Assembly: GCA_039908345.1 (NCBI GenBank)
Contig: JAMOBD010000063.1
Location: 1 to 32,995 of the forward strand
DNA: 32,995 nucleotides
Direction: 5' to 3'
Source: Magnetospirillum sp. WYHS-4
GTDB taxonomy: Bacteria > Pseudomonadota > Alphaproteobacteria > Rhodospirillales > GLO-3
This document shows, in pieces, positions 327-3,837 of this stretch. The position numbers were made by a program, and so were the translations under genes. The notes beneath the pieces were generated by a model. The model was not told the origin of the DNA. It worked only from the letters and a program-made list of their open reading frames with translations, and searched no databases. Position 1 is the first letter of the stretch; every line of letters begins with the position of its first letter.

Positions 327-833
327 ATGGCGGACGACGGGCGGCGTAAATGGGTCTGGGTTTCCGACCCCGACAGCTACGCGGGCGGCGTCCCCTCGGT
401 CCTGGCCGCTTTCGAGGTGGCGTTCGCCCTCTGGCTCTATTGGTGGGCCATTCCCCGGTATTTCGAAACCGACATCCACCTCCGCATCTCCGTCCTCGTC
501 GCCCCCCTGCTCCTCCTGCGGTCCCCGGCGTCCGTCCAGGCGGCGCTGGCGGCGTTCGAGCGATACGACAAGGCGGAGGAAGATTCCCTCCGGTCGCCCC
601 TTGCCTGGGCGGCGATCGGTCTGGGGGGCCTGGCGGGCGCCATGGCCGCAGGGCTGCTGGCCCACGGCTGGCTACCGGGCCACCAAGGATGGGACCTCTT
701 CTGGCGGGCCGCCGTCGTCGGTTGGGCCGGCTTGGAGGTTGCTGTAGCTGTAGCCGGAGGCGTAGTCATGGCAGGTCCTCGGCATTATGTAGCAAGCACA
801 CCTAAGCCCGCGATAGGCACGGCGCCGCCTTGA
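327..833 (+). CDS. Hypothetical membrane protein, probably 3'-truncated
   Basis: I do not recognise this family. I chose the ATG at 327 because GGGGGAAGGG lies just upstream; an in-frame GTG at 288 has no comparable site. The 168-residue product has a short polar start (KWVWVSDPDSYAGG) and hydrophobic stretches around residues 24-42, 54-65, 92-112 and 125-145, so it is probably an inner-membrane protein. After the last hydrophobic stretch the protein turns into an unconvincing polar tail (HYVASTPKPAIGTAPP). The final 32 bases of the ORF overlap the 3' end of vsr on the other strand. The simplest reading is that the original 3' end was replaced when the restriction-modification module arrived, and that the present stop codon belongs to the incoming DNA. 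That is inference. Confidence 0.55.
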   Translation: MADDGRRKWVWVSDPDSYAGGVPSVLAAFEVAFALWLYWWAIPRYFETDIHLRISVLVAPLLLLRSPASVQAALAAFERYDKAEEDSLRSPLAWAAIGLGGLAGAMAAGLLAHGWLPGHQGWDLFWRAAVVGWAGLEVAVAVAGGVVMAGPRHYVASTPKPAIGTAPP

Positions 834-1251
834 TCGCCGTCACCAACTCCTCCACCTTCGCCTGACTTTCCGCCTCGCACTCCCAAAGAACAATCACGGC
901 CCAGCCGGCGGCGGCCAGCGCCGCCCGCACCTCAGCGTCCCGCTTCTTGTTGCGGTTGATCTTGGCTGTCCACCATTCGACCCGGCTCTTGGGAATGCGG
1001 TGGCGGGGGCATCCTTCGTGACCGTGCCAAAAGCATCCATGGACAAGGACGGCTATGCGCCTGGAAGGGAATACAATGTCCGGCCGACCGGGCAGCATCT
1101 TGGCGTGCAGGCGATAGCGTAGGCCAGCGGCCCACAGCGCCCGCCTGACCCTCATCTCAGGGCCGGTATCCTTGCCGCGCACCCTGGACATGACTTGGGA
1201 GCGTGTCATTGGCAGGCGCCGGCCTTTGGATTTCCGGCGCTGCCCCGTCAT
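802..1251 (-). CDS. vsr: Very short patch repair (Vsr) endonuclease
   Basis: The 149-residue product has the full Vsr signature: a start helix (SQVMSRVRGKDTGPE), then LPGRPDIVFP with the metal-binding catalytic Asp near residue 58. This is followed by VHGCFWHGH near 70-78 with the zinc and active-site His/Cys, a W..KI.RN..RD block near 94-105, and GWAVIVLWECE near 116-126. Known role: Vsr nicks next to the T of T:G mismatches that arise when 5-methylcytosine deaminates, and so protects sites methylated by a partner C5-methyltransferase. The start at 1251 is chosen because its ATG overlaps the TGA of the endonuclease gene (ATGA coupling); the frame is open to 1332, but that would add 27 unrelated residues. 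It is the last gene of the four-gene module. The usual Asn of the PKTN motif is replaced (PKSR). Confidence 0.93.
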   Translation of the reverse strand: MTGQRRKSKGRRLPMTRSQVMSRVRGKDTGPEMRVRRALWAAGLRYRLHAKMLPGRPDIVFPSRRIAVLVHGCFWHGHEGCPRHRIPKSRVEWWTAKINRNKKRDAEVRAALAAAGWAVIVLWECEAESQAKVEELVTAIKAAPCLSRA

Positions 1252-2084
1252 CGGATCACTGAGAGGGCGAAGTCGTAATCGACGCGCTCCCGATAGAGTA
1301 TCACACGGTCGGGGAAAATCGTCGCCTGCCATTGGTCGGCGGGTAGAGCCGCGACGATGGCGCTCATGGCCTGCCTCGTCGTAATCGGACCGGTGGGAAT
1401 GGTCAACCTGCTTTCCCGTTGCTCAAAATGGCCAACATTGGCGGCGGCTGGACGCATCCTGCCATTCTGCCCGGGGACAAGATCGGTTTCGAACCGAATC
1501 AGGTACGGTAGCTTCTCTTTGAGTAGCAGCAGAACTTGGTGGGCGCTGTAGTCGCCGGGCGGCACGACGTCCAATTCCCTGTCAACGTCCACGGGGTGCA
1601 TTCGATCGAAGTCGGCTGGTTCCTGCCGTTCGCGGTTATGGCCCGGGTCATTCGAACCGAACCCCGAGTCGTTCCATGTGAGCTGCCGTTCTCCGCGCGC
1701 TCGCATCTCGTCGATGAGGATCGCCTCGACGTCAAACGTGGAGAACACCATCACGCGAACCGCCTTGAACGTCATGTCGTCCGGCTCCAGGCCGATGCGA
1801 TGTTGGATGGTGTCCGAGTGCCTTTCCAAGCGATCGCGGAAGCCGTGCCGCGCGTCGGTCTTGCCGGCGTAAACGGGGTGCCCCTGGTGCAACAGGAGGT
1901 AGGCGCCCTTCGCTCGCTCCGGAATCGCCATCACATGTTCACGCGTCAGCGGCGCTGACTCTACGCCATCGAAAAACATCGGCAACTGCTCTTTCAGCAC
2001 GCGCACGACATCCATTTCGAATTCGTCGTAACCTGGAATCCTGGCTACTACGACTTCGCCGGCTGGCCTTGGACGCCGGGCCAT
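1248..2084 (-). CDS. Type II restriction endonuclease, GIY-YIG nuclease fold, Eco29kI family
   Basis: The 278-residue product carries a GIY-YIG core: AYLLL (Tyr62), VYAGKT (Tyr72), RDRLERH (Arg85, His89), VEAILIDE (Glu120) and TWND (Asn138). It is followed by GFGSNDPGHNRERQ and a D..HP block near 159-164. The spacing and the GFG..DPG..R stretch match the Eco29kI group of restriction enzymes, which cleave CCGCGG. Specificity here is therefore inferred, not shown. The gene starts in TGATG overlap with the methyltransferase and ends in ATGA overlap with vsr, so the three are translated as a unit, methyltransferase first. Residues from about 180 to 278 (starting YSAHQVLLLLKEKLPYLIRF) go beyond the usual length of roughly 210-215 residues and have no fold I can name. 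All catalytic residues are present, so it is probably active. Confidence 0.85.
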   Translation of the reverse strand: MARRPRPAGEVVVARIPGYDEFEMDVVRVLKEQLPMFFDGVESAPLTREHVMAIPERAKGAYLLLHQGHPVYAGKTDARHGFRDRLERHSDTIQHRIGLEPDDMTFKAVRVMVFSTFDVEAILIDEMRARGERQLTWNDSGFGSNDPGHNRERQEPADFDRMHPVDVDRELDVVPPGDYSAHQVLLLLKEKLPYLIRFETDLVPGQNGRMRPAAANVGHFEQRESRLTIPTGPITTRQAMSAIVAALPADQWQATIFPDRVILYRERVDYDFALSVIR

Positions 2085-3235
2085 CAGGCCGCCCGCCGTG
2101 TCGGATGCGCGTCACCGAGGGTCCGAGCCATCCACTCGCCCAGGGATTGGGCCAGTTCCACCGGAACGGCGTTGCCGAGCTGCCGCATGCTCTCGCTCCA
2201 CGAAGACAGGAACGACCAGTGGTCGGGCAAGCCTTGCAGGCGCGCGGCCTCCCGAATGGTGAAATACCGCACCGAACCGTCGTCCCGGACCATCATGTTT
2301 TCGCCGCCAGGTACACCATGGTCCCCCGCCTTGAGCGCCTTGGCCGGCTCGTCCAACGGGCTGCCGGTATGGCCAGGATAGACCTTGGCGCCGTCCTGCC
2401 GAACATGGTTGTTCAGCCCGTTCGGCTCGCCCAGGTTGGTGATCGTGTCCCGAACGGTTCTCCACGCGGCCTCCTTAGGCCGCTGGTTGTTGGAGCGCAT
2501 GCGCGCTACGGCGCGACGGTCAGCGTCGGCCTGGGGGCCGGCGGCCGGCATCCGCATCCCGTGCCGCTCCCAATATTCTCCCGAAATCCACTGGTCCCAA
2601 AGGAGGCGATCACGGGAATGGGTGGGGGTGGGCTCCTCCAGGTTAATGCCGAGGTCGCGCCGAACGCCGGCCACCACCACGCGATGTCGCTTCTGGGCTG
2701 CGCCGTAGTCCGCAGCGTTGACCTTGACCACGATCACGTCGTACTCGGCTGGGGCCTTGACGAGACGCGCCAAGTGGGCGGCGTGTTCCTCGCCCTCGCG
2801 ACGCGTCAGGCCGGGAACCGCGAGATGGGCCTTGATCCAGGCCAGGTAGTCGGCGAAGGCCGGACGGGCAAGCCCTCGGACGTTTTCGAACAGGAAGGCG
2901 CGCGGGCGCAATTCGCGCACGGATCGGATGGCTTCGGGCCACATGTCGCGGGCGTCGTTGTCGCCCTTGTGCTTGCCGCCGATCGAGAACGGTTGGCAAG
3001 GGGGGCCTCCAGCGGCCAGCCAGACTTCCCCGCCGATCTCGGACCAATCGATGGCGCGCACGTCGCCCTGGACGAAGGGCCAGTCGCGGGCGTGTTCAAC
3101 CCCTCTGGCCTTGTTGTGCTCCAGCGTGGCGCAGGCGTCGGCGTTCCACTCCACCATCTTGGCGTGCTCGAAGCCGGCGCGGGCCGTGCCAAGCGCCAAA
3201 CCACCGCAACCACTGAATAGCTCGACGCTGCGCAT
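2084..3235 (-). CDS. DNA (cytosine-5) methyltransferase of the restriction-modification module
   Basis: All ordered motifs of m5C methyltransferases are visible in the 383-residue product. Motif I is ELFSGCGGLALG (residues 5-16); motif IV is GGPPCQPFS with catalytic Cys80; motif VI is ENVRGL. Motif VIII is QKRHRVVVAG, motif IX is RYFTIREAARLQGLP, and motif X is QLGNAVPVELAQSLGEWM. The variable target-recognition region lies between VIII and IX. It transfers a methyl group from S-adenosylmethionine to a cytosine in the target, presumably CCGCGG given the linked nuclease. I chose the ATG at 3235 because GGAGG sits five bases upstream; an ATG at 3256 overlaps the regulator's stop (ATGA) but has no ribosome site. 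The gene lies between the regulator and the endonuclease, so methylation should precede restriction when the module enters a new cell. Confidence 0.93.
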   Translation of the reverse strand: MRSVELFSGCGGLALGTARAGFEHAKMVEWNADACATLEHNKARGVEHARDWPFVQGDVRAIDWSEIGGEVWLAAGGPPCQPFSIGGKHKGDNDARDMWPEAIRSVRELRPRAFLFENVRGLARPAFADYLAWIKAHLAVPGLTRREGEEHAAHLARLVKAPAEYDVIVVKVNAADYGAAQKRHRVVVAGVRRDLGINLEEPTPTHSRDRLLWDQWISGEYWERHGMRMPAAGPQADADRRAVARMRSNNQRPKEAAWRTVRDTITNLGEPNGLNNHVRQDGAKVYPGHTGSPLDEPAKALKAGDHGVPGGENMMVRDDGSVRYFTIREAARLQGLPDHWSFLSSWSESMRQLGNAVPVELAQSLGEWMARTLGDAHPTRRAA

Positions 3236-3252
3236 TTTCCCCTCCAGCGTGT

Positions 3253-3429
3253 TCATTTGAACGGCAGTAGCGGGCCGCCCTCGGCCTTCTCTATGAGGTC
3301 ATCGACCGCCCGTTTGATCAGCCAAGCGATCTCGACCTTGTTCGCCTTCGAAATGCGCTCCAACGCCTCGCGCTGCTCCACAGTGAAGGTGGTGGTGATC
3401 CGCCTGGCGTTCTTACCGTCCTTACCCAT
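3253..3429 (-). CDS. Small ribbon-helix-helix (CopG/Arc-like) DNA-binding protein, putative controller of the RM module
   Basis: The 58-residue protein from the ATG at 3429 begins with a basic tail (GKDGKNARR). A short beta strand with alternating residues follows (ITTTFT), then two helices (VEQREALERISKANK and VEIAWLIKRAVDDLIEKAE). This is the CopG/Arc/MetJ pattern of dimeric regulators that insert a beta ribbon into the DNA major groove. It is the first gene of the minus-strand module, directly behind the promoter and the CCGCGG palindrome, and its TGA overlaps an ATG of the methyltransferase frame. I infer that it regulates the module. The frame is open to 3501, but those codons cross the palindrome and are unlikely to be translated. 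Most known RM controller proteins are helix-turn-helix C proteins, so this type would be unusual. Sequence similarity in so short a family is weak evidence. Confidence 0.72.
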   Translation of the reverse strand: MGKDGKNARRITTTFTVEQREALERISKANKVEIAWLIKRAVDDLIEKAEGGPLLPFK

Positions 3430-3452
3430 GGGCCGAGTCTCCCTGCGGGAAT

Positions 3453-3489
3453 CCGCGGTGGTTGTCAGTACTCCGCGGATATCCGCGGA
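3453..3489. promoter_or_regulatory. Putative operator: three CCGCGG sites, two in an 18-bp palindrome
   Basis: CCGCGG occurs at 3453-3458, 3473-3478 and 3483-3488. The last two lie inside TCCGCGGATATCCGCGGA (3472-3489), which is identical to its own reverse complement. All three share the longer word ATCCGCGG: direct at 3451-3458, inverted at 3473-3480, direct at 3481-3488. The array begins where transcription from the candidate promoter at 3497-3525 would start and ends about 20 bases before the regulator's ATG. It could be the binding site of the ribbon-helix-helix protein, a methylation-sensitive switch acted on by the methyltransferase, or both. The pattern is seen directly; the function is inferred. 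Confidence 0.6.
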
Positions 3490-3496
3490 CCTCGGC

Positions 3497-3525
3497 AGCA
3501 TCCCTCTTTAGGGTTGTAGCGTCAA
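3497..3525 (-). promoter_or_regulatory. Candidate promoter of the RM module
   Basis: On the minus strand a TTGACG -35 element (3520-3525) is separated by 17 bases from GATGCT (3497-3502), a poor -10. The predicted start is near 3490, immediately before the CCGCGG palindrome. The good -35 with a weak -10 fits a regulated promoter, but the -10 assignment is uncertain. Confidence 0.4.
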
Positions 3526-3705
3526 CCCTTCGTGCACCAGATGTGGCGCACGACAAGGAGCACCATAAGAACATTGCGGTCTGTTGTCAATATGTTCCAC
3601 ATAGAGGTGGGGAGGCGCGACATCCTCACCAACCCGTCAACGGGAGAAATACTGCCTGCGGACACAGCCCGGCGCGGAAGGATCGACGACCATCCCTCAA
3701 TCAGT
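3526..3705. other. Gene-free junction between the RM module and a gene remnant
   Basis: I see no convincing gene here. One plus-strand frame is open from an ATG at 3532, but its product has no recognisable domain and no good ribosome site. The stretch from about 3540 to 3610 is visibly richer in A and T than its surroundings, which suggests foreign DNA at the edge of the island. I found no tRNA, integrase, insertion sequence or clear direct repeat. Confidence 0.45.
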
Positions 3706-3837
3706 CGGGCCCGCGACCGCCTGGCCGCCCTGGCGGGAGCCGAAGTCCGGCTGGCGGCGGTGGCTGCCGACAAATACGGCGGGCGGGTGCTGGCCGCGGT
3801 GGCCGATGGAGGGGGCCGCCAGTCCTGGTGCCCCTGA
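3706..3837 (+). pseudogene. Remnant of a thermonuclease (SNase)-like protein C-terminus
   Basis: The plus-strand frame reads RARDRLAALAGAEVRLAAVA, then DKYGGRVLA, then after a shortened stretch GGGRQSWCP and a stop. In staphylococcal-nuclease-like proteins of this group, AR..L..L..G..V.L..V..DKYGGRVLA is followed by about 20-25 residues (a V..DG.DVG..L...GLARPY-type segment) before DGGRR..WC. Here that middle segment and the whole N-terminal nuclease half with its catalytic residues are missing. I read this as a decayed gene carrying both a 5' truncation and an internal deletion. The match rests on the DKYGGRVLA and GGGRQSWC words only, so it is tentative. Confidence 0.45.

Follow-up and report, generated by a model that had tools for sequence, protein, structure and literature searches.

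The stretch of the Magnetospirillum sp. WYHS-4 genome analysed here (32,995 nucleotides, hereafter the window) carries a compact operon with the gene order RHH-M-R-Vsr, all four genes lying on the minus strand (Table 1). A small ribbon-helix-helix (RHH) protein heads the operon and is followed by a C5-cytosine methyltransferase (M), a GIY-YIG restriction endonuclease (R) and a Vsr mismatch endonuclease. A cluster of CCGCGG hexamers lies upstream of the first gene, and a sequence-only reading of the locus had proposed that this cluster is an operator made of the restriction system's own target.

Table 1. Positions in the window of the operon genes, the upstream array and the promoter candidates
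Feature	Position	Strand	Remark
RHH protein, 58 aa, first gene, presumed autorepressor	3253..3429	-	Pfam RHH_3
C5-cytosine methyltransferase M	2084..3256	-	start at 3235 likelier from homologues
GIY-YIG restriction endonuclease R, Eco29kI group	1248..2084	-	Pfam RE_Eco29kI, active-site residues
Vsr mismatch endonuclease	802..1209	-	Pfam Vsr, 104.3 bits; open frame from 1332
Probable Shine-Dalgarno sequence of the RHH gene, GGGAG	3438..3442	-	read from sequence
Array unit 1 (gene orientation), CCGCGG	3483..3488	-	half of the 18-bp palindrome
Array unit 2, CCGCGG	3473..3478	-	10 bp from unit 1
Slot 3, in phase, CTGACA	3463..3468	-	degenerate
Array unit 4, CCGCGG	3453..3458	-	20 bp from unit 2
Array unit 5, CCGCAG	3443..3448	-	adjoins the ribosome-binding site
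Perfect palindrome TCCGCGGATATCCGCGGA	3472..3489	both
Near-array promoter candidate, TTGACG, 17 nt, GATGCT	3497..3525	-	1 of 500 shuffles as good
Upstream promoter candidate, TTGACA, 17 nt, TATGGT	3562..3590	-	better score

Operon genes and the likely target of the enzymes

Assignment of the first gene product to the RHH proteins is marginal by profile, with 21.9 bits to RHH_3 against a Pfam cut-off of 21.6 (scanned in the longer 82-aa frame). Among the seven relatives described below, the proteins of L138, L097 and L038 score above the Pfam cut-offs, that of L116 equals its cut-off, those of L115 and L011 fall below, and that of L114 matches no RHH family. The monomer model of the window protein (mean pLDDT 80.6) has two helices and no assigned strand; many of its top-ranked Foldseek matches in the PDB are RHH proteins (ParG, CopASO, PutA, Arc and CopG), all at E 0.35 or worse. 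Searches of solved structures thus gave no close relative, the best profile match being 6iya (E 0.046) and the best Foldseek match having E 0.35. We further note that the presumed strand residues, R-[VI]-T-T-[TS], are nearly constant across the family.

The endonuclease scores 35.0 bits against RE_Eco29kI (Pfam cut-off 30.8), and searches with it matched no PDB entry and no phage record. The active-site residues Y49, R104, H108, E142 and N154 of R.Eco29kI are kept in the window enzyme and in nine aligned relatives (the alignment excluded L018 and the broken gene of L097), and so is Y76, which we take to be a further active-site residue. The five former residues are those described for R.Eco29kI, whose recognition sequence is given as CCGCGG (PMC1952068); its partner M.Eco29kI is described as methylating the second C of that sequence (PMC3039593). 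The window methyltransferase is 44% identical to M.Eco29kI (plasmid pECO29, L016) over 96% of its length and 45% identical in the specificity region, where a block GHTGS..D.P.K.LKAG.HGVPGGENM is conserved, and a search of the assembly with it returned this gene alone at E 0.001 or better. The earlier placement of the endonuclease in the CCGCGG-recognising Eco29kI group is thus borne out by its domain, its kept residues and the related methyltransferase, and homology makes CCGCGG the likely target of the window enzymes.

Two kinds of GIY-YIG endonuclease are found joined to RHH-M pairs, one of about 280 aa (278 in the window, 281 in L268) and one of 311-327 aa (L114, L115, L116, L038 and L010) that scores 100-108 bits against RE_Eco29kI. 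An endonuclease of the shorter kind at L097:5127-5887 matches in two frames and looks frameshifted, apparently broken. Beside the operator region of the window, a short divergent open frame (3592-3837, plus strand) has no Pfam match at E 0.05, and our impression is that its tail resembles the end of a staphylococcal-nuclease-like protein.

The phased array and its candidate promoters

The three CCGCGG sites have starts 10 and 20 bp apart and lie 24-59 bp before the RHH start codon; two of them fall within TCCGCGGATATCCGCGGA, which is its own reverse complement. The clustering and the palindrome had both been reported from the letters alone, and positions and reverse complement agree. To these we add a 10-bp register and a near-copy of the site at 3443. 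The register comprises five slots, four of which match C[ACT]GC[AG][AG] on the gene strand, slot 3 (CTGACA) being the misfit. The near-copy, CCGCAG, differs from CCGCGG by a single change that lies opposite the methylatable cytosine. The phased array stands directly 5' of the RHH gene, and across the window and its relatives the last unit ends 8-13 nt ahead of the ATG.

That a GC-rich hexamer should have grouped here by accident has next to no credence. None of 2000 dinucleotide shuffles of positions 3430-3600 contained a triple with starts within 30 bp, and only one contained a 10-bp pair. When the whole 33-kb window is shuffled, a triple arises somewhere in 3 of 300 cases, which is what can be said for chance, and a 10-bp pair in 23 of 300. 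In the 3.65-Mb assembly, the pattern CCGCGGNNNNCCGCGG occurs at one place, the array itself, compared with nine places for a control pattern read backwards. Relatives carry the same phased array, and these comparative data contradict chance. CCGCGG itself shows no enrichment across the window, with 35 copies where 45.4 are expected. A 433-kb sample of the assembly contained 310 copies against 460 expected (ratio 0.67, rank 15 of 64 palindromes), too mild a rarity for avoidance to argue strongly for an active system. In the same 433 kb, GGATCC, CAGCTG, CTCGAG and CGATCG are rarer than CCGCGG, at 0.18-0.33 of the Markov expectation, and their scarcity may reflect other restriction pressure.

Two promoter candidates precede the array, both scored with an approximate matrix. 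The nearer one is predicted to start transcription about 2 nt ahead of the array; the upstream one, with a predicted start about 67 nt before it, is the best-scoring in the window. Near-array candidates were those whose start fell no more than 5 nt inside the array and no more than 10 nt ahead of it. In all eight lineages with a joined RHH-M pair (see below), the best such candidate has 17-nt spacing and a predicted start from 4 nt inside to 9 nt before the array. Their scores add up to 57.5, whereas shuffled sums average 13.8 and peak at 33.7, none of 500 shuffles being as good. For single lineages 0-61 of 500 shuffles are as good, and the near-array promoter is weak in L138 (61), L114 (52), L097 (33) and L116 (20). 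Better-scoring candidates lie 61-71 nt upstream in the window, L114 and L038, and L268 has one at 38 nt. The array had also been placed at the predicted transcription start of the restriction-modification module, and this placement is supported by the near-array candidate that precedes the RHH-M-R-Vsr operon.

Distribution of the array among relatives

When plasmids, viral contigs and genomes were scanned, seven further lineages emerged in which an RHH gene directly precedes a methyltransferase of this family. The nearest relative (L138/L268) belongs to the same order as the window organism, its methyltransferase being 83.5% and its RHH protein 61% identical. The others are Paraburkholderia fungorum (L114), Sedimenticola (L115), Xanthomonas sp. 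GPE 39 (L116), two contigs from a viral collection (L097 and L038) and four Xanthomonas plasmids (L010-L013), which we counted as one lineage, leaving out a fifth known plasmid. L116 is close to these plasmids (methyltransferase 96.6% identical), although its array differs. In the viral contigs, a first scan gave no confirmed RHH and a second gave only the L097 and L038 contigs; the exact palindrome had no match there, and the pattern CCGCGGATNRCCGCGG occurred in at least 120 stretches, L266, the L097 contig, being among the matches listed.

Units were sought with the pattern C[ACGT]GC[AG][AG], which restricts positions 5 and 6 to A or G and leaves position 2 alone free. The three units read CTGCGG throughout in L268 and CCGCGG throughout in L114 and L097. 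The remaining arrays are mixed: CTGCGA, CAGCAA and CCGCGG in L115; CTGCAA, CAGCAA and CCGCAG in L116; CAGCAA, CAGCAA and CTGCGG in L010 and L011; and CCGCGG, CCGCGG and CAGCGG in L038. Three units stand in phase in seven of the eight lineages, and the window has two plus two around its degenerate slot. Position 2 is C, T or A across the lineages, G not being seen. Fully repeated CTGCGGATCG units may stem from tandem duplication.

The period does not depend on the motif. In a motif-free self-comparison of the 90 bp before the RHH start (lags 6-15), lag 10 was the best in all eight lineages, with 12-16 of 16 columns matching, a level reached by 0 or 1 of 500 shuffles. Among distant RHH genes, two of eight have p of 0.05 or below (L270, 0.036; L273, 0.0), the others being L271 (0.054), L033 (0.086), L032 (0.138), L272 (0.296), L274 (0.592) and L269 (0.88). 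The 10-bp period thus belongs to the close family, and not clearly to all relatives. A further distant RHH, in L102, heads a Vsr-M pair whose methyltransferase is 50% identical; it was kept outside the RHH list, and before it lies a GTGGTGNNNNGTGGTG repeat (GTGGTGAATTGTGGTG, L102:4344-4359) with a lag-10 score that is not significant (p 0.158).

On whether homologous modules keep the CCGCGG array, a check that the sequence-only reading had set for itself, the answer is divided. A phased array with at least two CCGCGG is found in four of the eight lineages, a single copy in one and none in three, the nearest relative included; merging L116 with the Xanthomonas plasmids gives four of seven, one and two. 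The four lineages sit in different branches of the methyltransferase tree. Relatives without CCGCGG keep the phased array, and we therefore rejected CCGCGG as a required part of it. A single origin of the RHH-M pairing was likewise set aside: the tree needs four changes and the pairs do not form one clade, so no claim of descent is made for the pairing.

The array follows the RHH gene rather than the methyltransferase. Upstream regions were taken from 116 sequences, of which 85 were kept (those in which the methyltransferase was identified with its start included and no less than 200 bp before it, without duplicates) and 31 dropped, leaving 11 RHH loci and 74 loci without this RHH. Upstream of the 74 related genes there is no 10-bp CCGCGG pair and no triple within 36 bp. 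Just five of the 74 reach 57% identity to the window methyltransferase, and for one of these the upstream sequence is limited to 316 bp; the contrast between RHH presence and absence therefore rests largely on more distant methyltransferases. In all eight RHH-M lineages, C[CAT]GC[GA][GA] units are preceded by a promoter candidate and followed by the RHH start codon, and the 74 other loci lack the CCGCGG pair; the array goes with the RHH gene. On these comparative grounds the array is a real, conserved regulatory element, whose identity with the system's own target is variable and confined to half of the lineages found.

Proposed control of the operon and its parallels

Because the array goes with the RHH gene, it is most likely the operator of an RHH autorepressor, and we consider it probable that the CCGCGG cluster of the window serves in this way the small RHH product of the gene that heads RHH-M-R-Vsr. 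We infer that RHH dimers would occupy adjacent units cooperatively along a single helical face and would repress the operon as a whole. They might mask the transcription start of the near promoter or, bound downstream of the upstream one, block the RNA polymerase that comes from it; repression of initiation and of elongation both fit the promoter layout. Methyltransferase and endonuclease would then be low at steady state. The unit would tolerate C, T or A at position 2, and with C it can match CCGCGG, which is probably what the methyltransferase recognises. Against the operator reading stand the degenerate middle slot of the window array, the better score of the upstream promoter, the RHH profile score barely above its cut-off, with some relatives below, and the folding of some arrays as RNA hairpins better than shuffles. 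The proposal of an operator made of the system's own target thus keeps its central part, an operator bound by RHH being the best reading, and loses the requirement for CCGCGG.

Two alternatives give the array another role. Hairpins formed by the repeats in the RNA could mask the ribosome-binding site, and CCGCGG units are indeed able to pair with each other; the region folds better than shuffles in L011 (z -3.43), L115 (-3.25) and L116 (-2.19). The scores are inconsistent across relatives, however (L268 +0.59, L097 -0.64, L114 -1.23, the window -1.42, L038 -1.74), the paired regions differ among them, and the exact 10-bp period suits the DNA helix; we rejected a hairpin as the common feature and regard an RNA element as highly improbable. 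Scarcely better placed is control by the methyltransferase itself, whether its methylation of the promoter acts directly on RNA polymerase, as at CfrBI, or it represses by binding. Precedents exist, promoter methylation being reported to control CfrBI, AhdI and LlaDII and some methyltransferases being described as repressing by binding operators (PMC12707154, PMC3874152). The array is nonetheless absent from the 74 methyltransferase loci without this RHH, on which ground RHH-free methylation control was rejected, and it persists without CCGCGG in relatives that bear the RHH gene. Nor does the window methyltransferase have an N-terminal helix-turn-helix extension, aligned homologues starting at or near MRSVELF. 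We hold this account to be very unlikely.

Coupling between methylation and the RHH operator would add to the operator reading rather than replace it. Methylation by M might alter RHH binding, or RHH might block methylation, so that expression follows the methylation state. The window array has three copies of the presumed target, the assembly has the single methyltransferase gene noted above, the base methylated by M.Eco29kI falls inside the unit (PMC3039593), and the four lineages with at least two phased CCGCGG are spread over different branches of the tree. On the other side, CCGCGG is missing from three of the eight arrays, that of the closest relative included, and is single in one, and position 2 varies between C, T and A while the presumed RHH strand residues hardly change, which suggests that the base at the methylated position matters little. 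The CCGCGG units of the window carry methylatable cytosines, so such a circuit is possible in this genome; we think it unlikely, methylation being at most a local addition to the repressor circuit, one that is not conserved.

L268 bears on the direction that any such effect might take. All three of its units have T in place of the methylated C (CTGCGG), and its RHH strand residues match those of the family. Thymine bears the same major-groove methyl group as 5-methylcytosine, a likeness suggesting that RHH either binds with little regard to methylation or prefers methylated sites. T changes at this position could have arisen by deamination of 5-methylcytosine. A more specific, and improbable, proposal is an epigenetic switch in which RHH reads the methyl group of C-5mC-GCGG and represses only once M is active; in-phase units other than CCGCGG would then mimic the methylated state and lock their arrays into a methylation-independent form. 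Of the 13 in-phase units other than CCGCGG, 12 carry either T in place of the methylated base or A across from that base; CAGCGG, in L038, is the exception. Because the search pattern admits only A or G at position 5, the count of A lends weak support to mimicry. The opposite sign, in which methylation blocks RHH and RHH blocks methylation, is equally conceivable. Mutual block between methylation and regulator binding is known from pap and agn43.

The operator reading can be set beside several known arrangements. CopG, Arc and MetJ-type RHH repressors, of the same fold family as the window RHH by profile, bind phased sites in tandem as dimers. The closest analogue found, resembling the window in function with a protein of another kind, is RptR (RMS-proximal transcriptional regulator) of enteropathogenic E. 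coli, an experimentally shown repressor with three 9-bp direct repeats, each holding a 6-bp palindrome, upstream of the start and overlapping the -10 box (PMC12255303). As described there, RptR, like the window RHH, is small and is the product of the leading gene of its restriction-modification locus, with short direct repeats upstream, and two of its sites flanking a non-binding one suffice for repression, a design that the gapped array of the window fits. By description the two are set apart: RptR has 79 aa, a four-helix structure, TAGCTA sites, 9-bp repeats and mostly type I systems (PMC12255303), whereas the window has a 58-aa RHH, 10-bp repeats and a type II 5mC system, and its unit, unlike the RptR site, can equal the system's own likely target.

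The balance of type II systems is described as being set by C proteins, methyltransferase autorepression, promoter methylation and reverse promoters (PMC3874152, PMC12707154, PMC6237814). C proteins are helix-turn-helix regulators, whereas the only Pfam match of the window regulator is RHH_3. C.Kpn2I, bound downstream of its promoter, is reported to repress by an elongation roadblock (PMC6237814) and offers a precedent for the stronger upstream promoter of the window; it differs in being a C protein with a site inside its own coding region. Eco29kI has the gene order R-M with no RHH among the two annotated genes of pECO29 (L016), and its reverse promoters are described as acting on the forward ones (PMC3874152). 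CfrBI had been offered as a precedent. It does share a cognate methylation site in the control region, yet its control acts on divergent, overlapping promoters of M and R (PMC12707154), whereas the window has a single operon, several phased sites and an RHH gene; with all the window genes running in one direction, CfrBI is the looser analogue. Promoter methylation is apparently used rarely, with CfrBI, AhdI and LlaDII being named (PMC12707154).

A partial search of the open-licence literature returned no type II system headed by an RHH repressor whose operator had been characterised, which falls short of a firm absence; within the same limits, searches combining RHH or CopG with restriction-modification, RHH with 5-methylcytosine and CCGCGG with operator did not return this arrangement. 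In the parts of one review covered, the sole mention of RHH concerns toxin-antitoxin regulators (PMC3874152), and RHH domains are reported in 4% of uncharacterised predicted defence clusters (PMC13092281). Among 199 genomes of the order, all seven non-self matches to the RHH protein (L268-L274) lie beside DNA-modification defence genes, namely M-R-Vsr, another C5 methyltransferase, BrxB-BrxC, two other type II methyltransferases, a type III system and PbeA-PbeC. Two plasmid matches outside Xanthomonas (L032 and L033) precede genes annotated as N-6 DNA methylase.

The eight versions of one operator, some methylatable and all faced by near-constant presumed RHH contacts, constitute a natural experiment, and the family makes feedback of a methyltransferase on its own repressor directly testable. 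The occurrence of RHH genes beside BREX, Pbe, type III and other methyltransferase genes indicates that a wider class of defence-operon repressors may exist.
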